A stretch of DNA of 11,831 nucleotides from Pseudomonadota bacterium (GTDB lineage: Bacteria; Pseudomonadota; Alphaproteobacteria; Rhizobiales; Hyphomicrobiaceae): assembly GCA_021813195.1 (NCBI GenBank), contig JAKALI010000064.1, forward strand, positions 1 to 11,831, given 5' to 3'. Both the position numbers and the translations under genes were made by a program. The notes under the pieces are model-generated. The model ran no database searches and had not been told where the DNA came from. It saw only the letters and a list, made by a program, of their open reading frames with translations. The stretch's first letter is position 1, and every line of letters begins with the position of its first letter. Below, piece by piece: positions 2,509 through 11,831 of the stretch.

Positions 2509-2556
2509 ATGATTCTTCCAGCACATGCTCCACACCAAACTCTATCCCGTTTGTGA
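2509..2556 (+). other. Strong ribosome-binding site with a 15-codon reading frame
   Basis: AGAGGAGA at about 2494-2501 sits eight bases ahead of ATG 2509, the best Shine-Dalgarno match in the left third of the window, yet the frame stops after 15 codons (TGA at 2554-2556). It may be the leftover start of a gene interrupted by the event that brought in the recombinase fragment, or a chance match. No function can be assigned to so short a peptide. Confidence 0.25.
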
Positions 2557-3004
2557 GCAAACTCATTATGACGTCGGTGGCAACCGGAGTCATCTGGTCC
2601 CCCTCGTTGGCTGGGGCGCCGAAGCAGTCAGGAAGCTCGACCGGCTGTCGGACAGTGTAGATGGGCCCGGCTGGTTGTTTCCCGGTAGGCGCACGCTAAG
2701 CATGATTTCCGAAGGTATCCAAGCCGGTCATGCCGATGTCGGCCTACTCAACGACTATCTCGGCGTCCCGCCCGGAGCCAATTTCTCGCCGCACTGCGTA
2801 CGTTATGCGTTCAGCACCTACGGCGAACGCGACTTGGGATTTCACAAGTCGGAAGCTAAGGTCATATTGGACCACATAGAAGGGATGGAGCCTGACTGTG
2901 TTATTTACCAGGCCAGAACGATACTTCGTCGATGGCCCTGGCTGCACACATGGGGGTCTTTGGCTATACTTCAATTGGCATTGAAGATGGTCGGACCCCG
3001 ATGA
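2525..3004 (+). pseudogene. C-terminal remnant of a tyrosine recombinase (phage-type integrase)
   Basis: The open frame gives up to 159 residues; recognisable similarity begins at about residue 16 (GGNRSHLVPL) and ends at about residue 145. It keeps the catalytic C-terminal pieces of the family: a PGWLFPGRR segment, the HxxR box as H90-C-V-R93, a histidine in ILDHIEG (H117) and a candidate nucleophile Y128 in VIYQ. The N-terminal core-binding domain and the first catalytic arginine are missing: a full integrase is about 350-420 residues. I therefore read it as a 5'-truncated remnant of a mobile element. The last residues run past the normal family end, and the stop overlaps the next gene's start as ATGA at 3001-3004, so it may feed translation into the response regulator by accident of fusion. 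ATG 2525 is only the first start in the frame, not a proven start. Confidence 0.62.
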
Positions 3005-3666
3005 AACTACTGATTGCCGAAGACGACGCAAAGACGGCGGCCTTTCTGCGCACCGGCCTGACGGAGCAGGGATTCGTTGTCGATACAACGGGCGACGGCG
3101 AGGAGGCGCTGCACCTCGCGCAAGAGGTGGACTACGCCCTCCTTATCTTGGACGTCATGCTGCCGGGACGCGATGGCTGGTCCATCCTGGAAGCCTATCG
3201 GCAATCCGGCGGCCAAGCGTCCGTGTTGTTTTTGACGGCCCGCGATGCTGTGCCCGATCGCGTCAAGGGCCTGGAGCTCGGCGCCGATGATTATCTGGTC
3301 AAACCGTTTGCCTTTGCCGAGTTACTGGCCCGGGTCCGGTCGCTGCTGCGGCGTCGAATGGCGCCAGGCTCCGACCGACTGCAGTTCGAAGACCTGTCTC
3401 TCGATCTGCGGCGGCATCGGGTCATGCGCGGCAACACGCCGATCGACTTGACGCCCAAGGAATTCCTCCTCCTTGCTTTGCTGCTGGAACACCAGGGTGA
3501 TCTTCTCTCGCGCACTCTGATTGCCGAGCAGGTCTGGGATCTTGCCTTCGACAGCGATAGCAATGTTGTTGACGTACACATCCGCCGTCTTAGGAGTAAA
3601 GTAGATGATCCCTTCGAGCGGAAGCTGATCCACACGGTGCGAGGGCTTGGATATGTCCTCCGCTGA
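3001..3666 (+). CDS. OmpR-family response regulator, CusR/CopR-like
   Basis: A 221-residue two-domain DNA-binding response regulator. The receiver domain (residues 1-115) holds the acidic pocket D8-D9, the phospho-acceptor D51 in LDVMLPG, T79 in LTARD and K101 in VKPF. The C-terminal winged helix (about 125-219) contains [13 protein letters not shown] and the [14 protein letters not shown] recognition region typical of the OmpR/PhoB group. The closest general resemblance is to regulators of metal-efflux loci (CusR, CopR, IrlR). I start at ATG 3001 because MKLLIAEDD is the usual start of the receiver; the frame extends to 2932 but that part overlaps the recombinase remnant and has no family similarity. 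The stop overlaps the sensor kinase start. A weak -10-like TATACT lies at 2965-2970 within the remnant. Confidence 0.93.
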
Positions 3667-5137
3667 GCGTTCCAAAGCTCAATTGAGTAAAGCCCTACAG
3701 CCCGAATCTCGCGCGACCCGCACTTGGTCATTGGCTGCACGGCTGGCCACTTGGTACGTCGTCTCTGCTTTTGCCTTGGTTCTCGTGGTGAGCGGCGGCC
3801 TATATTGGGCGCTGTTGGCCGGAATGCGGAGCGCCGATGACGAGATACTGATTGACAAGGTCCATGTTCTTCGCAGCCTACTTTCGGCCCCGCATCCCGA
3901 TCGGGCGATCATCGAACAGGAGATCGGAGAAGACGCCAATGCGCCGAGGCGCATCTATCTGCGGGTGCTGGCACTCGATGGCACAGTCCTTTATCAGTCG
4001 CCGCACATGGCAACCGATTTGCCGCCGGCAGTTTTTCCTCGGACGCCGAATGGCAATGGAGAGGCCGCCGGCGGCAGAACTGTTCAAGGGTCGGACCGAA
4101 CGTCCTATCGTGCGCTATCGAACCGACTGCGATATATAAGCGTAGGAAAGCCGCACGAAGTCATCGTCCAGGCGGCGATCGACACAACCTCGGACGAAGT
4201 GCTCCTGGCTCGGTATCGGACCGCACTTGGCATCATCCTGGGCGTTGCGCTTATTTTGTGCGCGGCAGCGGGCTACCAGATCGTGCGCGTTGGCCTGCTC
4301 CCGGTACACCGGATCGCCCGGGCGGCAGAGGAAATTGAGGCCAGCACTTTAGACAAGCGACTTGCTGTTGAAGGACTTCCGCCAGAACTGCGGGGCCTCG
4401 CGACCACCTTCAACGCAATGTTGGAGCGTCTCGAAGACTCGTTTGGAAAATTGCGCCAGTTTTCGGACGACATCGCTCACGAACTAAGAACACCCGTCAA
4501 TCGCCTATTGATTGCAAACGAAGTCGCGCTCCGACAGACCAGATCGGTCGATGACTACCACGAGGTTCTCTCGTCCAACATCGATGCCTGTACGCGACTT
4601 TCTCAGACGGTGCAAAGCTTGTTGTTTCTGGCGCGCTCGGAAAACCCGCAATCTCGGTTGCAGCGCGAAAACGTGGAGATCGCTCCGCAACTCTCGGCCA
4701 TCCAGGAGTTTTACGAGCCGCTCGCCAATGAAAAGGGCATTGACCTTTCAACGGAATGCAGTCCTGGGCTCACCGCTGCGGGCGACCGCTCGCTACTTCA
4801 GCGCGCGGTTGGTAATCTTGTTGCAAACGCGATTGCCCATACCCCGCAGGGTGGCTCAATCAAAATTGTCGGCCGCGATCTCGGTGCTTCGCTGTCCATC
4901 GAAGTGGCCGATACCGGGGAAGGCATTGCCGCGGAGCATCTGCCCTATGTGTTCGATCGGTTCTTCCGCGTGGAGCGGGATCGGCCATCGTCCGACGGCA
5001 ATCTTGGGCTCGGACTTGCCATCGTGAAGAGCGTTGCGGCTCTGCATGACGGATCGGTTAGTATTGACAGCGAGGCCGGGCGCGGAACGTTGGTCGCCAT
5101 CCGGTTGCCGAAGACCAGCGATGCGCACGCCGACTGA
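3653..5137 (+). CDS. Sensor histidine kinase, partner of the response regulator
   Basis: A 494-residue membrane kinase. Order of parts: cytoplasmic N-tail, TM1 (about 30-56), a periplasmic sensor region of about 130 residues, TM2 (about 190-212), HAMP linker (about 213-265), HisKA domain with phospho-acceptor H276 in [12 protein letters not shown], and the HATPase domain with the N box ([12 protein letters not shown]), the G1 box (VADTGEGIA), the F box ([10 protein letters not shown]) and the G2 box (GLGLAIVKS). The layout matches the CusS/IrlS-type metal-sensor kinases, but the periplasmic domain shows no obvious histidine- or methionine-rich metal motif, so the ligand is open. I chose ATG 3653; a TTG two codons earlier is also in frame. 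The 14-nt overlap with the regulator gene indicates translational coupling and a cognate pair. Confidence 0.92.
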
Positions 5138-5225
5138 GCCCGCCGTGTTTCGTGCTGAAAGACTGGCCGATATTGGGTCTCGAAGGCGGAGTTCCGGGAG
5201 CCGAGGGCTATGCCGCCAAACATGA

Positions 5226-5250
5226 CGATTTCGTTAGCTGGGCGTAATCG
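5226..5250 (+). promoter_or_regulatory. Conserved leader hairpin 1 (copy 1)
   Basis: CGATT (5226-5230) pairs with AATCG (5246-5250); across one T·T mismatch the stem continues with CGTT against GGCG (two G·U pairs) to close an AGCTG loop. The stem is kept intact in copy 2 at 6158-6182, where the only change in the element is in the loop (AGCCG). It may act in the RNA leader of uppP, or could be an operator. Confidence 0.4.
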
Positions 5251-5252
5251 GC

Positions 5253-5291
5253 GAGTCAGGTCCACTCCGCTATGGTCGCCGCACCTGACTC
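5253..5291 (+). promoter_or_regulatory. Nine-base-pair stem-loop just before uppP
   Basis: GAGTCAGGT (5253-5261) is perfectly complementary to ACCTGACTC (5283-5291), with a 21-base loop holding the CGCTATGGT block that is shared with copy 2. No T-tract follows, so it is not a standard terminator. Its place 17 bases before the uppP start suits control of translation or RNA stability. In copy 2 the corresponding pairing is shorter: GGGTCA could pair with TGATCC through one G·U. Confidence 0.45.
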
Positions 5292-5308
5292 ACTGACCCG
5301 CAAGCGCC

Positions 5309-6157
5309 ATGTCACTCCTCCAAGCAGTCGTCCTTGCCGCAATCCAGGGCATAACTGAGCTGTTTCCTATCAGCAGTCTCGGTCATGCAGTGATCCTCCC
5401 CAAGCTGCTCGGCTGGTCCATCGATCAGCATGCCGAGGGCTACCTACCCTTCCTGGTCATGCTTCACGTCGGCACGGCGGCGGCGTTGCTGCTCTATTTC
5501 TGGAGCGAATGGGTGGGCATCCTGCTTGCCATCTTCGGAATTGGCTCACCGGCCGAGATATCCGATGGTCGCCGTCTGCTCGCAAGGCTCATCGTGGGTA
5601 CGGTGCCGGCTGTTATCATCGGTTTTCTATTCGAGAATCCGCTGCGTGCCTTGTTTGGCGACCCTGCTCTCGTGGCGGGAGTGCTGATGATCAATGGTGT
5701 CATTCTATTTGTCGCCGAACGGCTCAGGAGCCGGGCGAAAGCGAATCAGGATCTGACAACGCTTTCCCTGGCCCAGGCGCTTTGGATTGGCATCTGCCAG
5801 GCCGGCGCGCTCATCCCTGGCCTTTCCCGCTCCGGACTGACGATCGGGGCTGGGCTAGGCGCTGGCCTCCGTCACGATCAGTCGGCTCACTTTTCGTTTC
5901 TACTGGCCGCTCCGATCATTACGGGAGCCGCCGTCCTGGAGCTGCCAAAGCTGATCCTCCACCATGCCACTGGCGGCATCGGGCTGGAAGTATCGCTCGT
6001 AGGCGGCCTTGTTGCCGGGCTCACCGCGTTCGCGAGCGTTGCCTTTCTGATGAGGTTCTTCCGGCGCCATGAGGTCGAAGCGCTCGATCCCTTTTCTTAT
6101 TACTGCTTCCTGATCGGCGCCATCGCCGTCGTAATATTTGCCATCGGGCGAACATGA
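5309..6157 (+). CDS. uppP: Undecaprenyl-diphosphatase, UppP/BacA family
   Basis: A 282-residue polytopic membrane enzyme that removes a phosphate from undecaprenyl diphosphate, recycling the lipid carrier for peptidoglycan and other envelope polymers; overexpression of the family gives bacitracin resistance. Both signature regions are present: the (E/Q)xxxE motif as Q13-G-I-T-E17 followed by PISSLGH with H26, and PGLSRSG with R174. The E. coli PxSSTGH motif has a small residue where this protein has L24, marking a divergent subgroup. About eight hydrophobic segments follow the family pattern and the length is normal. The start is fixed by family alignment, since no good Shine-Dalgarno is seen. 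It lies 171 bases after the kinase gene and its stop overlaps copy 2 of the repeat. Its place in an efflux operon suggests an envelope-stress role, possibly as a second uppP besides a housekeeping copy; this is inferred. Confidence 0.92.
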   Translation: MSLLQAVVLAAIQGITELFPISSLGHAVILPKLLGWSIDQHAEGYLPFLVMLHVGTAAALLLYFWSEWVGILLAIFGIGSPAEISDGRRLLARLIVGTVPAVIIGFLFENPLRALFGDPALVAGVLMINGVILFVAERLRSRAKANQDLTTLSLAQALWIGICQAGALIPGLSRSGLTIGAGLGAGLRHDQSAHFSFLLAAPIITGAAVLELPKLILHHATGGIGLEVSLVGGLVAGLTAFASVAFLMRFFRRHEVEALDPFSYYCFLIGAIAVVIFAIGRT

Positions 6158-6340
6158 CGATTTCGTTAGCCGGGCGTAATCGCCGGGTCACGTTCGTTTC
6201 GCTATGGTGCGGCGCCCTCAATTCATTGATCCACAAATTCCATGCCACTCCTGCAAGCGATAGTCCTCGCCGCGCTTCAAGGCATAACCGAACTGTTCCC
6301 CATCAGCAGCCTCGGCCATGGAACGATCCTCCCCAAGCTT
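6151..6340 (+). repeat. Direct repeat copy 2: leader plus uppP 5' stump fused to the adaptor frame
   Basis: This copy begins inside the uppP stop region (AACATGA) and repeats the uppP leader and first 33 codons (ATG 6242, residues MPLLQAIVLAALQG...). Similarity ends at about 6340, at codon 33 (PKL), and the frame runs on into the efflux adaptor. The mostly synonymous differences from copy 1 indicate that it diverged while still coding for UppP, then lost the rest of the gene by deletion. An ATG at 6154 overlaps the uppP stop as ATGA and reopens the MTISLAGRNRRV frame, which runs to 6375. Confidence 0.85.
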
Positions 6341-6379
6341 TTCGCGCGCATGCAGATGATCAAGTTGATCGATAAATCG

Positions 6380-7411
6380 ATGCTAGTTCGCTCATGCGCA
6401 TACTGCATCGTCGCGGTATTTGCCCTCGCGGCGCGACCGGGATACGCCGCGGACGGGTTGTGGATCGCCAAGACACAAACTGTGGCCAGACAGGTGATTG
6501 CCTACGGCACCGTGGAGCCGCGCGCCGTGCTTCGAGTGCGGGCCGGCGTCGCTGGCACTTTGCGCGATTTCTCGGTATTGCCGGGCGACGTGGTCACCGC
6601 GGGCGCCTCGCTTGGCCACCTCGCTGGCGCGCCGGTGGATGCACTACTGGCGTCGCGCCAATCCGCACTCGCTGGTGCTGAGGCGCAGCTCAAGGCGGCG
6701 CAACAAGCGTTGGCAATCGCGCGGCAGAACCTGACGGCTCGCCTGAATACGCGTGACGTGGTCGATCGCGCCGAAGCCGCGGTGAAGCAGGCCCAGGCGG
6801 CTCGCAACGGTACCCAAGCCAATCTCAAAGCGGCCCAGAGCATGGTGCTCGTGCGGGCCCCACGGGCAGGCCGCGTGCTAACGCTGGGCGCCACAGCGGG
6901 GGAACGCGTTCAACCGGGCGAAACGATCCTGACACTGTTGCCAAACCACGCCCTATGGCTCCGGGCGGTTTACTATGGCAATGCTGCGAACCGTGTTCGC
7001 GTGGGCATGTCCGGTGTCTTCGCCCCCGCGGGTGGGGGCGCGACTATACCGGTGAAGGTGCGCGCAATCGTCGGAGCGCTGCGTGCGGACGGCGGACGGA
7101 CGGTGAGCCTCGTCGCCACCAGTTCCGAGCCTGGGTGGCTCGACGGCGAAGCTGGCACAGTCACGATTGATGCAGGAAAAGTGACCGGCGTGGCGGTGCC
7201 GACCAGCGCATTGATTCTCGATCAGGCAAACTGGTGGATCGTCGTGCACACCGCAAAGGGAGACGAGCCGCAGCGGGTCGCGCCGGGACCGCGCTGGGGC
7301 GCGCTGACCCTGATCGAGCATGGTCTCACGCCGGGAACGGCGGTCGTGGTTGCGAACGCCTATCTTGAATTCCACCGCGGTATCAGCGCGCACTATCAGC
7401 CGCCGGACTGA
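6380..7411 (+). CDS. RND efflux periplasmic adaptor (membrane fusion protein)
   Basis: A 343-residue HlyD/AcrA-type adaptor linking the inner-membrane pump to the outer-membrane channel. From ATG 6380 it begins with a signal peptide (MLVRS, hydrophobic CIVAVFALAA, likely cleavage after GYA at about residue 23). Then come the first half of the lipoyl/barrel-sandwich domain (VEPRAVLRVRAGVAGTL... to about 75), an alanine/glutamine-rich alpha-helical hairpin (about 85-150), the second lipoyl half (VRAPRAGRVLTLGATAGERVQPGE), a beta-barrel and a membrane-proximal domain. The frame is open upstream to ATG 6242, adding 46 residues copied from the UppP N-terminus; these would bury the signal peptide, so I prefer 6380, although neither start has a clear Shine-Dalgarno. 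Only 5 bases separate it from the permease gene, so the two are co-translated. Confidence 0.85.
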   Translation: MLVRSCAYCIVAVFALAARPGYAADGLWIAKTQTVARQVIAYGTVEPRAVLRVRAGVAGTLRDFSVLPGDVVTAGASLGHLAGAPVDALLASRQSALAGAEAQLKAAQQALAIARQNLTARLNTRDVVDRAEAAVKQAQAARNGTQANLKAAQSMVLVRAPRAGRVLTLGATAGERVQPGETILTLLPNHALWLRAVYYGNAANRVRVGMSGVFAPAGGGATIPVKVRAIVGALRADGGRTVSLVATSSEPGWLDGEAGTVTIDAGKVTGVAVPTSALILDQANWWIVVHTAKGDEPQRVAPGPRWGALTLIEHGLTPGTAVVVANAYLEFHRGISAHYQPPD

Positions 7412-7416
7412 GGCCA

Positions 7417-10400
7417 ATGGCTGCACTCGAAAGTATCAGGCGCTTTGCGTTCCGACCGCTGCTCTGGATCATGGTGTACAGCGCGCTCGCTGGTTACGGT
7501 GCTTATGCTCTCCTGAACATCCCGGTCGAGGTGCTGCCGCGCTTCGACTTCCCGCAGATCGGTGTGGTGACGCATGTGTCGGGGGCGACCGCGCGCGAGC
7601 TCGAAATGCTGATCGTTCGGCCGATCGAGGGACAGCTCTTGTCGCTGCCGAACGTAGTCAGCATTCGTTCAACCATGGGCAACGGCGTCGTCGAGAATGA
7701 CGTACGCTTCCGCTCCGGCACAGCGCCGTCCCAAGACCTTCAGGCGGTCAATGGTGTGATTGATCGCGCGCGCGGACGGCTGCCGTCGACGGCCGAGCCT
7801 TATGCCGAGATCATGGGCAACGCCATTAATGAGGTGGCCGATTACACTACGGCGATTCCAGCTGGCATCGCGCCGGTTTCGGTGCAGCGGGCCATCGTGA
7901 CGCGTATCGTACCACAGCTGCGCGCGCTGCCCGGCGTCCAGCGCGTCGATGTCTACGGCACCGGCGATGAGGCCCTGCTTGTCGCGCCCGACCTGCAGGC
8001 GATGAGCCATTATGACGTCGGGGTCGGCGCCATTATCGATGCCGTGAAGCAGCACGTCGTGCTGGGCTCGGCCGGCTACCTCTCGCTCGGGCATCAGGAC
8101 GTGCTCGCTGAGGCGCGCGGCGCGCCGACCCAAACGGCCGAACTCGATCGAATCCCGGTAAAGGGCGCCGACGGGCCGATCCCGCTCCGCGCGCTCGCTC
8201 AAATTTCGCGTGGTCCCGTGCCGACGCACAATGCCGTCCGGCTCGATGGTCGGCCGAGCATCGCGCTCGCCATCTTCAAGCAGCCGGGCGCCTCCACCGT
8301 CCCGGTAACACGCGAGGTCCAGCGCACTTTGGCGGCAACCCAGGCGCAACTGCCGAGCGGCGTGCGTTGGATCAAGATGTACGATCAGGGCCATCTCGTC
8401 GGCATCATCGGCTCCGATCTCGGCCGCAACCTGTTCATTGGAGGCGTGCTCGCCGTCGTCGTGCTGATTTGGATCCTAGGGGCGGGGCGTGGCATTTGGA
8501 CGTTAGCGTTCAGCATTCCGCTGTCGCTGATTCTGGGAATCGCCGGGTTGTATGCCACCGGCCAGAGCCTCGATCTGATGACGCTCGGCGCGCTGACTGT
8601 TGCCATCGGCATCCTCGCCGATGACGCGATCATCGTACTCGAAAGCATCTACCATCGCTGGGAAGAAGGCGATGATCGCTGGACCGGAATCCGCAACGGC
8701 CTCGCCGGAATCGCCGGGCCCGACGTGACCGGCACCTTTACCGTTGTCGCGGTCTTCGTGCCGTTGTTGTTCGTCGGCGGCCTTGCCGGACTGTTCTTCG
8801 TGCCCTTTGCGCTCGCCATGTCGCTGGCGTTGCTGATGTCGCTGTTCGTGTCGTTGACGTTCATCCCGTTCGGCCTCGGTTTCATACAGGCGCGGCCAGC
8901 ACATCGGCAGAACGCGGGCGGACGCGCCGTCGAGCGACTGCAGCGGCTCAACGCGCGCCTACTCGATCTGACCCTGCGCTTTCCACGGTGGAGTGTCGGC
9001 GCCTGCGCGCTGGTGCTGCTCGCTGGCGTTGCCGGTTTGGCGCTCGTACCGGTCAATTTTCTTCCGCTGCCCAATGAAGGCGTTCTGCTCGAAAGCTTCA
9101 CCCTGCCGCCTGGCAGCGCGTTAACGGATGCCGAGGCAGCTGTCGCCGGCATTACGCAACGGCTGACGGCTGACCCGGCGGTGGCGCACGTCTTCGCGCG
9201 CATCGGTTCGCCAGCGAACACAGCGTATACCGAGCCGGCGTATGCCGGTGAAATCCAGATCAGTTTGAAGCCCAACGTCAATGCCAATAGCCTCGATCGC
9301 ATCGGCGCGCGCGTGCTGCGCGAAAGCCGCGCGACCGGCCTACAGATGGCGCTCGACACGCCGACGATCGAGCGCGTCGGCGAGAGCCTATCGGGGCTAC
9401 CGCAGCCGTTCGTCATTCATGTGTTTGGCAGTAGCGTTGCAAAACTGCGCGCGTTATCGCAAGAAATCACCGCGCGACTGCGTCGAGTTCCGGCACTCAC
9501 TGACATCTTCAACAACGACGCTTATCCGGTGACCGAGCTTCGGATCGAGCCGAAGCCGGCGGCGCTCGCCGCTTACGGATTGACGCCGGCACAGCTCTAC
9601 GCGCAGTTGCGTCCGCTGCTTGCCGGCGAAGTTGTCGCAACGGTACCGCAAAGCAGTTACCCACTCGATCTCTATGTGCGACTGGCTGACGCACCCGGTC
9701 AATCGCTTGAGGCGCTGCGCCGCCTACCCATCCGCACGGGCGATTGGACACCACTTGGCCAACTTGCGACCCTCGATCTCGCTGCCACGCCCGATCAGCT
9801 GCGCCACATCGACGGTGCGCGTGCCCTCGACATCTTGGCGACGCCGACCGGCGCGCCGGGCTCGGCGATCTCCGCGGCGCAGCAGGCGCTTGCCGGTTTG
9901 CATCTCCCGGCAGGCTATCACGTTGCCTTCGGCGGCCTTTATCCTGAGCTAGAGACGGCGGCACTGCGGCTCGGCATCGCCGCCATCGCCGCGTTTATCC
10001 TGATGGCCGGTATTCTGGCGCTGCAATTCGAAGGTTGGCTCGTCCCCGGGGTGCTGCTGCTGCAAATCCCGCTCGCTTTCGCCGGCGGCGCATTGGCGCT
10101 CGATTTGAGCGGCGTCGGTCTCAATGCATCAGGCCTTGTCGCCTTCGTCACGCTCATCGGCCTGAGTCTGCGGCAGGGCATTGTGTTGCTGCACTACGCG
10201 CGCCACCGCGAGGCTGACGGCTGGACACCGGAGGAGGCCCTGCGCGAAGCCGTGAAAGTCCGCTTTCGCCCCATTCTTCTGACCACGCTGACGGCCGTGC
10301 TCGGCATGCTGCCGACGGCGCTCGGCTGGGGACAGGGTGCCGCGCCTGAGCAGGGTCTGGCGATGGTGATACTCGGTGGCATCCTGTGGAGCGCGCTGCT

Positions 10401-10464
10401 CAGCACCAATCTGCTCCCGGCCCTGTACCTGCACGGCCGACGCAAGCAACTCGTACGGAGCTAG
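7417..10464 (+). CDS. RND efflux permease, inner-membrane pump subunit
   Basis: A 1015-residue RND transporter of normal length that exports substrate from periplasm or membrane using the proton gradient. It shows the family layout: TM1 near the N-terminus (about 13-33), a first large periplasmic loop, TM2-TM6 (about 335-490), a cytoplasmic linker, TM7 (about 530-550), a second periplasmic loop and TM8-TM12 to the end. The proton-relay pair is D402-D403 in GILADDAIIVLE, as in drug-type (HAE) pumps, whereas metal pumps of the CzcA/CusA type usually have D-G there. The TM10 lysine of AcrB (GLSAKN) is replaced by arginine: GLSLRQG, R919. It is thus a divergent RND member; the substrate is unknown, with hydrophobic toxicants more likely than metals on the D-D pair but metals suggested by the regulator type. 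A GAGG precedes the ATG. Confidence 0.94.
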   Translation: MAALESIRRFAFRPLLWIMVYSALAGYGAYALLNIPVEVLPRFDFPQIGVVTHVSGATARELEMLIVRPIEGQLLSLPNVVSIRSTMGNGVVENDVRFRSGTAPSQDLQAVNGVIDRARGRLPSTAEPYAEIMGNAINEVADYTTAIPAGIAPVSVQRAIVTRIVPQLRALPGVQRVDVYGTGDEALLVAPDLQAMSHYDVGVGAIIDAVKQHVVLGSAGYLSLGHQDVLAEARGAPTQTAELDRIPVKGADGPIPLRALAQISRGPVPTHNAVRLDGRPSIALAIFKQPGASTVPVTREVQRTLAATQAQLPSGVRWIKMYDQGHLVGIIGSDLGRNLFIGGVLAVVVLIWILGAGRGIWTLAFSIPLSLILGIAGLYATGQSLDLMTLGALTVAIGILADDAIIVLESIYHRWEEGDDRWTGIRNGLAGIAGPDVTGTFTVVAVFVPLLFVGGLAGLFFVPFALAMSLALLMSLFVSLTFIPFGLGFIQARPAHRQNAGGRAVERLQRLNARLLDLTLRFPRWSVGACALVLLAGVAGLALVPVNFLPLPNEGVLLESFTLPPGSALTDAEAAVAGITQRLTADPAVAHVFARIGSPANTAYTEPAYAGEIQISLKPNVNANSLDRIGARVLRESRATGLQMALDTPTIERVGESLSGLPQPFVIHVFGSSVAKLRALSQEITARLRRVPALTDIFNNDAYPVTELRIEPKPAALAAYGLTPAQLYAQLRPLLAGEVVATVPQSSYPLDLYVRLADAPGQSLEALRRLPIRTGDWTPLGQLATLDLAATPDQLRHIDGARALDILATPTGAPGSAISAAQQALAGLHLPAGYHVAFGGLYPELETAALRLGIAAIAAFILMAGILALQFEGWLVPGVLLLQIPLAFAGGALALDLSGVGLNASGLVAFVTLIGLSLRQGIVLLHYARHREADGWTPEEALREAVKVRFRPILLTTLTAVLGMLPTALGWGQGAAPEQGLAMVILGGILWSALLSTNLLPALYLHGRRKQLVRS

Positions 10465-10532
10465 GCGGGAGATGACGTTGTGATCGTGCGAATTGGTAAG
10501 TAGTTTCAACTGCGGTGAACGGGGGTTGAGTG

Positions 10533-11831
10533 GTGAGCTGCGTCCGAGGTTTCCGTAGTTTCCAATCGTTGCGCGTGACTTCCGCGACTGTTCTCGCGGC
10601 CGCGGACCGCCGTGAGGCGCGCGATTTCATCCGCCGCTTCAAGCGTCGCGCGCGAATTGTGATACTCGCTTTTGTCGGTGCCATTGCTCTCGCGGCGTTG
10701 GCGGGTTGTGCGACCTACCGCAAGCTGCCCCTCGCTGTTGGCTCGGATTTAAAGGCAAACGTGGCCGCTCTTCATACGGCGGTACCAGTTGGCCCTGCTA
10801 TCCGGCACATCGATCTGGCGCGACCTCTCACAATCGACCAGATCGGTATATTGGCTATTCTCAACGACCCCGATCTGAAATCAGAGCGCGGCACGATCGA
10901 TGTCGCGCGTGCGGGGGTAGTACAAGCAACCGTTATCCCAAATCCTGTAGCGAATTTCAGCTATGGAGCGCTGATCAGCGGTGACGCCACGACTTCGTCA
11001 CTTGCCGCCGGGCTATCACAGGCATTGGCCGCCATCATCACTCGGCATGCTCGCTACAAGGCGGCCGAGCTTCATCTGCATCAGGTCAACGCCGACCAGC
11101 TTTGGCGCGAATGGCAGGTCGCAGAGAAGGCGAGGCAACTTGCAGCGGATATCTACTCGGTCGACCGATCTATTGCACTGACGCGGCAAGAGATAGCGCT
11201 GCTGTCCCAAGAAGTCGCACAGGTGAGGAAGGCAATCTCGGCCGGTAATCTGACGCTCGCTGCCGAAGCCCCACTGGCAGCCGCACAGGCGGTCGCCGAG
11301 AACTCCCTTGTCACGTTGAAGCTCAACCGGCTCAAGCATTGGCAGATGCTGGATGGGTTGCTCGGGCTTGATCCGAAGGTACGCTTCCGGATTGCCCGTC
11401 CGGTATTCGATCCTGTGCCCAGGCATATCGAACCACTGCTTGCAGACTTGCCCGACAGGCGTCCCGATTTGGCGGCCCTACGGCTCGGCTATGATTCTGC
11501 AGACGAAGAAGTCCGGGCCGCTATTTTGGGACAGTTTCCAGCTTTAACGGTGGGAGGCTCGTACCACAAAGATACCGGCGACGTGATAACCGCGGGGCCG
11601 ACATTCAATCTGGCGCTGCCGGTGTTCGACCGTAACCAAGCCCGGGTGGGCAGAACGACCGCGACACGTCTCCTGCTGCGTGCGCAATACGAGGCGAGGC
11701 TTGACCGGGCCACTGCCGATGTCCGCGCGCTGGTTGCCCAAATTGGGCAACTATCGATGGATTTGATCGCAGCTCGCAGGGCTGCTGCGGCGGCGCAAAC
11801 ACTGGCGAAGACGGCACGGCAAGCCTATTCC
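10533..11831 (+). CDS. Outer-membrane efflux lipoprotein (TolC/CzcC-like), cut by the right edge
   Basis: An open frame runs from a stop at 10527-10529 to the right edge without interruption (433 codons from GTG 10533). It contains a basic then hydrophobic segment ending in the lipobox LAGC (C59 from this start, codon at 10707), so the mature protein is probably a lipid-anchored outer-membrane factor. Then comes the OEP-family pattern: LTIDQIGILAILNDPDLKSER, long amphipathic coiled-coil helices, and the DLPDRRPDLAALRL repeat junction followed by the second half (FPALTVGGSYHKD..., GPTFNLALPVFDRNQAR). It should form the trimeric channel for the pump encoded upstream, 68 bases away. Start choice is uncertain: GTG 10533 has GGGGG seven bases upstream but gives an unusually long n-region; GTG 10575 or 10659 are alternatives. 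The C-terminal end is outside the window. Confidence 0.85.
   Translation, partial: MSCVRGFRSFQSLRVTSATVLAAADRREARDFIRRFKRRARIVILAFVGAIALAALAGCATYRKLPLAVGSDLKANVAALHTAVPVGPAIRHIDLARPLTIDQIGILAILNDPDLKSERGTIDVARAGVVQATVIPNPVANFSYGALISGDATTSSLAAGLSQALAAIITRHARYKAAELHLHQVNADQLWREWQVAEKARQLAADIYSVDRSIALTRQEIALLSQEVAQVRKAISAGNLTLAAEAPLAAAQAVAENSLVTLKLNRLKHWQMLDGLLGLDPKVRFRIARPVFDPVPRHIEPLLADLPDRRPDLAALRLGYDSADEEVRAAILGQFPALTVGGSYHKDTGDVITAGPTFNLALPVFDRNQARVGRTTATRLLLRAQYEARLDRATADVRALVAQIGQLSMDLIAARRAAAAAQTLAKTARQAYS

Follow-up and report, generated by a model that had tools for sequence, protein, structure and literature searches.

Pho-box-type tandem operators of OmpR-family regulators consist of repeats at 11-bp spacing placed upstream of a -10-like hexamer. 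In Escherichia coli, the C55-PP phosphatases come from two families, BacA and PAP2, according to one report (PMC4641660). The first catalytic motif of E. coli BacA/UppP holds Glu21, Ser27 and His30, and activity drops about 50-fold upon loss of Ser173 and about 1000-fold upon loss of Arg174, as described in two papers (PMC5861054, PMC4641660). The DNA considered here, which we call the window (the whole stretch analysed, 11,831 nucleotides), is best read as containing a CzcR/S-type two-component island in which a single predicted promoter type serves a C55-PP phosphatase, UppP, and an RND efflux pump. The predicted promoter of the pump is followed by the beginning of another uppP gene, fused to the adaptor gene. 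This second copy is probably the remnant of a once-complete second uppP; the pump would now be driven from the promoter of this copy, which is predicted to respond to the two-component system. More informative than the relic is the predicted switch that the C55-PP phosphatase slot and the RND pump have in common.

Organization of the locus

The features from 3001 onward are all on the forward strand. The response regulator (3001..3666), of the CzcR/SilR/CopR type in the OmpR family, contains the Pfam domains Response_reg and Trans_reg_C and passes TIGR01387 (318.4 bits, cut-off 279.2). The sensor histidine kinase (3647..5137), of the CzcS/SilS/CopS type, passes TIGR01386 (388.2 bits, cut-off 292.55). 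Next comes the first predicted regulator-dependent promoter (5221..5275), assigned from its repeats spaced by 11 bp, the 10 bp and TATGGT that follow them, and its likeness to the second copy. It precedes the complete copy 1 of uppP (bacA), at 5309..6157. The second predicted promoter (6153..6207, within the repeat copy 6151-6208) overlaps the uppP stop codon and is followed by the uppP stump (6242..6343), which corresponds to codons 1-34 of a second uppP, or the first re-entrant hairpin. A linker (6344..6379), which has no counterpart in relatives in the adaptor alignment, connects the stump to the signal peptide of the RND periplasmic adaptor proper (6380..7411). The RND permease (7417..10464; PF00873, 607 bits) and an outer-membrane efflux protein (10530..11831; PF02321), truncated by the window end, complete the pump.

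The adaptor, assigned from the adaptor alignment, passes TIGR01730 (96.4 bits, cut-off 94.9) and stays below the cut-off of the CzcB model TIGR00999 (80.7 versus 319.3). The permease lies between the heavy-metal and multidrug classes, below the cut-offs of both the heavy-metal (HME) model TIGR00914 (407.5 versus 701.45) and the multidrug model NF033617 (460.8 versus 1250); among its solved relatives, ZneA and MdtB have the highest scores by sequence. The permeases of the related loci L001-L004 are 80-86% identical to that of the window, the adaptors of those loci only 58-68%; judged from these comparisons, the adaptor evolves much faster than the permease.

Copy 1 of uppP passes PF02673 with 230.5 bits (gathering score 33.4), while its scores for the NCBIfam equivalogs NF001397 (355.6 versus 363) and TIGR00753 (181.7 versus 217.5) are both below the cut-offs, so that it is filed by its domain and motifs and not as a certified equivalog. 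Alignment to PDB entry 5oon places both catalytic motifs, with the positions of E. coli Glu21, Ser27 and Arg174, in copy 1, as GITELFPISSLGH and PGLSRSG. Position 13 of this UppP group is glutamine in all 120 homologs compared and aligns with E. coli Glu17, described as the partner of the catalytic base in PMC5861054.

The region before the regulator gene contains, from 1 to 1150, short ORFs only (at most 80 codons), including one of 70 codons (451-663) with weak zinc-ribbon-like matches that are all under the cut-offs. A CRP/FNR-type regulator is encoded at 1169-1858; its best identity among 372 sampled genomes of the class is 49%, with matches at 1e-35 in 25 of them. The window kinase has no match at 1e-70 in any of the 372. 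An ORF of 159 codons (2525-3004) matches no Pfam or NCBIfam family; its carboxy-terminal part may resemble a tyrosine recombinase, and the ORF might be what is left of an integrase next to the island. A search of the window against Rfam matched no family.

The repeated segment

The stretch 5219-5411 recurs at 6151-6344, 932-933 bases downstream and in the frame of the adaptor ORF. A global alignment (193 versus 194 nt) contains one single-base gap. Identity is 86% in the first part (5219-5276 versus 6151-6208) and 76% in the second (5277-5411 versus 6210-6344). Upstream of 5219 and 6151 there is no similarity (16 of 20 bases differ), and at the other end the likeness stops near codon 34. The stop codon of uppP (6155-6157) is located inside the second leader copy, and the second copy opens a 389-codon ORF (6242-7411) that is continuous with the adaptor. 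The description from which we started, of a leader and 33 uppP codons repeated in frame with the adaptor, is thus confirmed in its coordinates by alignment. In the adaptor ORF, Pfam BacA matches residues 6-36 (E 6e-7) with 29.8 bits, under the gathering score of 33.4 as expected for a fragment, and NF001397 matches residues 1-35 (E 3e-10).

When codons 1-33 of the two copies are compared (from 5309 and 6242), 16 pairs are identical, 12 differ synonymously and five nonsynonymously, reproducing the earlier count exactly. Of 99 coding bases, 20 differ between the copies, with 4, 2 and 14 differences at the three codon positions, as do 14 of 26 synonymous sites. By the Nei-Gojobori method, dS is 0.95 and dN 0.087, giving a dN/dS of about 0.09. 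In a randomization with 20 random unweighted substitutions (3000 draws), 12.9 residues changed on average and seven at minimum, versus the five observed. The pattern of UppP-type selection on both copies, proposed in the earlier note, is upheld by these values, which cover 33 codons as the whole of the evidence on past selection.

The second copy was also compared with 120 UppP homologs, including P0042, which is identical to copy 1; the closest relatives are nine sequences with 83-90% identity. The stump retains the conserved first re-entrant motif. At positions 7, 12 and 34, its residues are common in UppP (71, 57 and 50 of the 120). Phe34 is present in all nine closest relatives and Ile7 in seven of them, where copy 1 has Leu34 and Val7, and given this match at positions 7 and 34 copy 2 is probably no recent copy of copy 1. 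Pro2, Gly27 and Thr28 of copy 2, on the other hand, are found in none, one and none of the 120. The simplest reading of these 33 codons would be that copy 2 was under UppP selection for a long time and then without it for a shorter one. Only the first catalytic motif is present in the stump. Having the nucleophile half of the active site and lacking the arginine half, it should be enzymatically dead, and it is expected to be without phosphatase activity.

Junctions and translation start

Eight uppP relatives of 280 residues end in IG, and the window uppP ends in IGRT. The gene runs two residues into the second leader, which puts the left join where uppP ends and the operator begins, the position expected if a box-uppP unit was doubled or recombined at the box. 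The right join is after codon 34 and is followed by a linker of 36 bases and then the adaptor signal peptide; the chance of an in-frame join is one in three.

Before the fusion, the adaptor probably started at what is now Met47 of the ORF (6380). Free energies against the 16S tail are 0.3, 0.6 and -0.2 kcal/mol for the starts of uppP, the stump and Met47, none of which has a Shine-Dalgarno-like sequence, and -5.9, -4.3 and -3.7 kcal/mol for the adaptor starts of L003, L001 and L002, which have weak ones; the contrast is itself weak, since the median for random 17-mers is -2.6 and their lower quartile -4.6. As there is no Shine-Dalgarno-like sequence before 6380, the fused ORF is predicted to start at 6242, and this former uppP start is mildly favoured.

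A structural model of the fused protein, built from an alignment with 33 rows, is predicted with confidence in the adaptor body; the solved structures that match the model best are adaptors, including TMexC and AcrA. Residues 1-70 are modelled with low confidence and contain only a short helix (residues 3-12). The suggestion that the stump forms an extra membrane-associating helix receives no support from this model.

The leader as a predicted promoter

The leader of copy 1 contains the repeats ATGAC, GTTAG, GTAAT and GTCAG at 11-bp spacing (5221-5259; 6153-6191 in copy 2), followed by ten bases and TATGGT. Of its first 32 bases (5219-5250), one differs between the copies, versus 12 of the 31 that precede the start codon (Fisher p 0.0005). 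Within the repeat, the leader has been preserved better than the remainder. A scan of 5100-6500 for the sigma-70 consensus found no site, which fits a putative activator-dependent promoter.

Similar leaders are present at related loci. L003, organized as regulator, kinase, adaptor and permease and without uppP, has a co-linear leader before the adaptor, with a local score of 23 with copy 1 (reached by none of 1000 shuffles) and of 14 with copy 2 (reached by one of 1000). With the leader of L002, which plainly resembles that of L003, either copy gives a score of only 12, attained by 30 and 19 of 1000 shuffles. A profile made from the four leader sites located an additional site in L002, at 2014, directly 3' of the kinase gene. 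In scans of whole genomes, the L002/L003 pattern gave two sites in G002, one in G003 and none in G001, all of them already known, and a reversed-pattern control gave no sites in G001-G003.

Direct repeats at 11-bp spacing precede the target genes in eight of ten upstream regions from eight regulator-kinase-linked loci (0.04 repeat pairs expected), by a post-hoc pattern, written when sequence from all but one of these loci was already known. The pattern is absent from L007, the sole unseen locus, and from L043, and ten other spacings gave no matches in the same ten regions. In a later set of 38 regions, which counts L007, L024 and L043 again and leaves out L037, L038, L039 and L045 (partial adaptor match), only L024, regulator-linked and already seen, has the pair, with none in the 35 regions not directly linked; in this set spacing 6 gave one match (L024) and spacings 8, 11 and 12 one each. 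The DNA-binding domains of the regulators at the loci of the operator test are 63-72% identical to that of the window. From these data we infer binding of the regulator to the repeats. The leader looks like a regulator-dependent promoter that is kept in stump-less pump operons, and not like a passive part of the relic. A literature search on 11-bp operators found no paper.

The phosphatase slot in related loci

Behind the first box of L002, a gene at 2261-2860 matches the YbjG-type undecaprenyl-diphosphate phosphatase model (E 3e-22) and Pfam PAP2 (E 0.005). It is broken by one in-frame stop, due to either decay or an assembly error, and the part 3' of the stop matches the same two models (E 2e-4 and 0.009). 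The fragments reach 79.4 of 229 bits, far under the YbjG model cut-off. With this PAP2 gene in the slot of uppP, two unrelated families of C55-PP phosphatases fill one slot. The order in L002 continues with a DedA-PAP2-LssY_C protein, a P-type ATPase, the second box and the pump.

DedA-PAP2 relatives are located near related pumps in three of 46 genome loci (L002, L036 and L041) and absent from the stretches of DNA examined at the other 43, with a weak DedA match in L026. They are also present on the Paraburkholderia plasmids L065, L078 and L079, loci that were picked for carrying pump relatives and so do not form a random sample. In the order of G002, one of 43 genomes has a DedA-PAP2 relative at 1e-60. 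The genes at L036 (6083-8134), L041 (2351-4426), L079 (2525-4540) and L065 (1238-3286) lie near pumps of the window's clade. The DedA-PAP2 proteins near these pumps come from different phyla and from plasmids, and the frame of L065 is split by a stop.

Distribution of the fusion and of uppP

An adaptor search gave 41 matches, of which P0001-P0036 are close adaptors; 32 of these 36 were aligned, leaving out P0022, P0026, P0027 and P0033. The stump is present in one of the 32 (P0001, 99% identical) and absent from 31. A general UppP-like extension of such adaptors, which the earlier note had named as speaking against its proposal, was thus not seen. The two known fusions, in the window and in P0001, offer no divergence from which to gauge selection. 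In 46 genome loci with a related adaptor, neither the stump nor uppP, single or in tandem, was found.

At E 1e-100 or better, uppP was found in none of 385 genomes sampled within the class to which G001 belongs and in none of three in another set; the class draws are samples, so that blanks there say little. A uppP at 1e-60 occurs in 28 of 43 genomes of the G001 order, the best match being 58% identical, and G001-G003 contain one uppP each (55% identical). Matches on plasmids are 54% identical at best; the single neighbourhood examined, that of the Roseomonas gilardii plasmid uppP, has no adjoining pump. Neither uppP nor the exact leader pattern was found in viral contigs.

Origin of the second copy

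The repeat, the UppP-type pattern, the adaptor fusion and the promoter layout before stump-less pumps are features of the sequence itself, and the reading of copy 2 as a relic of a second uppP, which they suggest, is likely. A box-uppP unit would have been duplicated in tandem, or acquired by recombination with a related locus. The second gene would subsequently have been lost from about codon 35 onward, along with any sequence then lying before the adaptor, through a deletion that fused the stump to the adaptor signal peptide. The promoter and 5' end of a phosphatase gene would stand upstream of a pump because the second gene was likely cut down. The response regulator, binding the 11-bp repeats of both leaders, would activate uppP along with the pump, and C55-PP recycling would then increase in parallel with efflux. 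The second-uppP relic of the earlier note is favoured by the substitution pattern, the relative-like residues, the later unusual changes and the near-absence elsewhere, while the tandem full-length genes that it envisaged were seen in none of the 46 loci; a tandem origin is plausible.

Part of this history could be replaced by a single recombination, in which the uppP promoter and a 5' fragment from a diverged strain were joined to the adaptor. A full second gene would then never have existed here, and the divergence of the copies would predate the join. We regard this promoter capture as the less probable course, with a small but appreciable chance. The shared operator provides a recombination site, copy 2 is like the relatives of 83-90% identity at positions 7 and 34, and the steps of a tandem phase are all unseen in the 46 loci. 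The sole discriminating point, the left join, argues against capture: it coincides with the very end of uppP, where duplication of a box-uppP unit would place it.

The stump could also be kept for its protein, the UppP hairpin acting as an extra membrane anchor of the adaptor or as a tie to UppP or its lipid. The open frame and the retention of most of the strongly conserved UppP motif residues agree with such a role. It is nevertheless improbable, in view of the low model confidence over residues 1-70, the unusual residues at 2, 27 and 28, the lack of a stump in all 31 other aligned adaptors and the complete signal peptide-like stretch that follows it. Least probable is an assembly artefact, in which the repeat served to join sequences of two strains. 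The window is as long as the contig given for its own kinase record, P0160 (11831 bases), and so appears to represent a complete assembled contig containing a near-repeat, but the copies differ in a fifth of their compared coding bases, and the 99% identical fused adaptor P0001 is encoded on a 6277-base contig with five member sequences, from a sample that is perhaps not independent.

Comparison with known systems

Read as a gene relic, copy 2 is a clear case of a gene remnant that may survive as the promoter and start of another gene. Some two-component pump islands may include a C55-PP phosphatase of their own that is governed by the same predicted switch; if so, efflux and the recycling of cell-wall lipid would be linked in a way open to testing. 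A wider generalization is put forward tentatively, at somewhat less than even confidence: a CzcR/S-type island would couple lipid-carrier recycling to efflux, with a four-repeat promoter in front of a phosphatase slot, occupied in different bacteria by BacA-type or by unrelated PAP2-type enzymes, and in front of the pump, whose RND clade is intermediate between the heavy-metal and multidrug classes. In the window, duplication of the box-phosphatase unit would have been followed by collapse of the second gene into the leader of the pump. A literature search returned no title on such a phosphatase-pump module, which does not show it to be unpublished.

When compared with E. coli BacA/UppP (PDB entries 5oon and 6cb2), copy 1 aligns across both catalytic motifs, while the stump is equivalent to the first re-entrant helix pair, where the Glu21/Ser27/His30 motif lies, and misses the second motif (Ser173 and Arg174). 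The YbjG/PAP2-type phosphatase of L002 occupies the same slot 3' of the kinase gene, behind the same predicted promoter type as uppP, although its protein family is unrelated to BacA/UppP. The predicted operators of the leaders share the spacing and the -10-like hexamer of Pho-box-type operators, but the letters of the repeats differ. With the RND pumps controlled by CzcRS or CusRS, the locus has the type of regulator and kinase in common, both passing the CzcR/SilR/CopR and CzcS/SilS/CopS cut-offs; it differs from them in its permease and adaptor, which fail the heavy-metal models, and in that the island encloses a C55-PP phosphatase.
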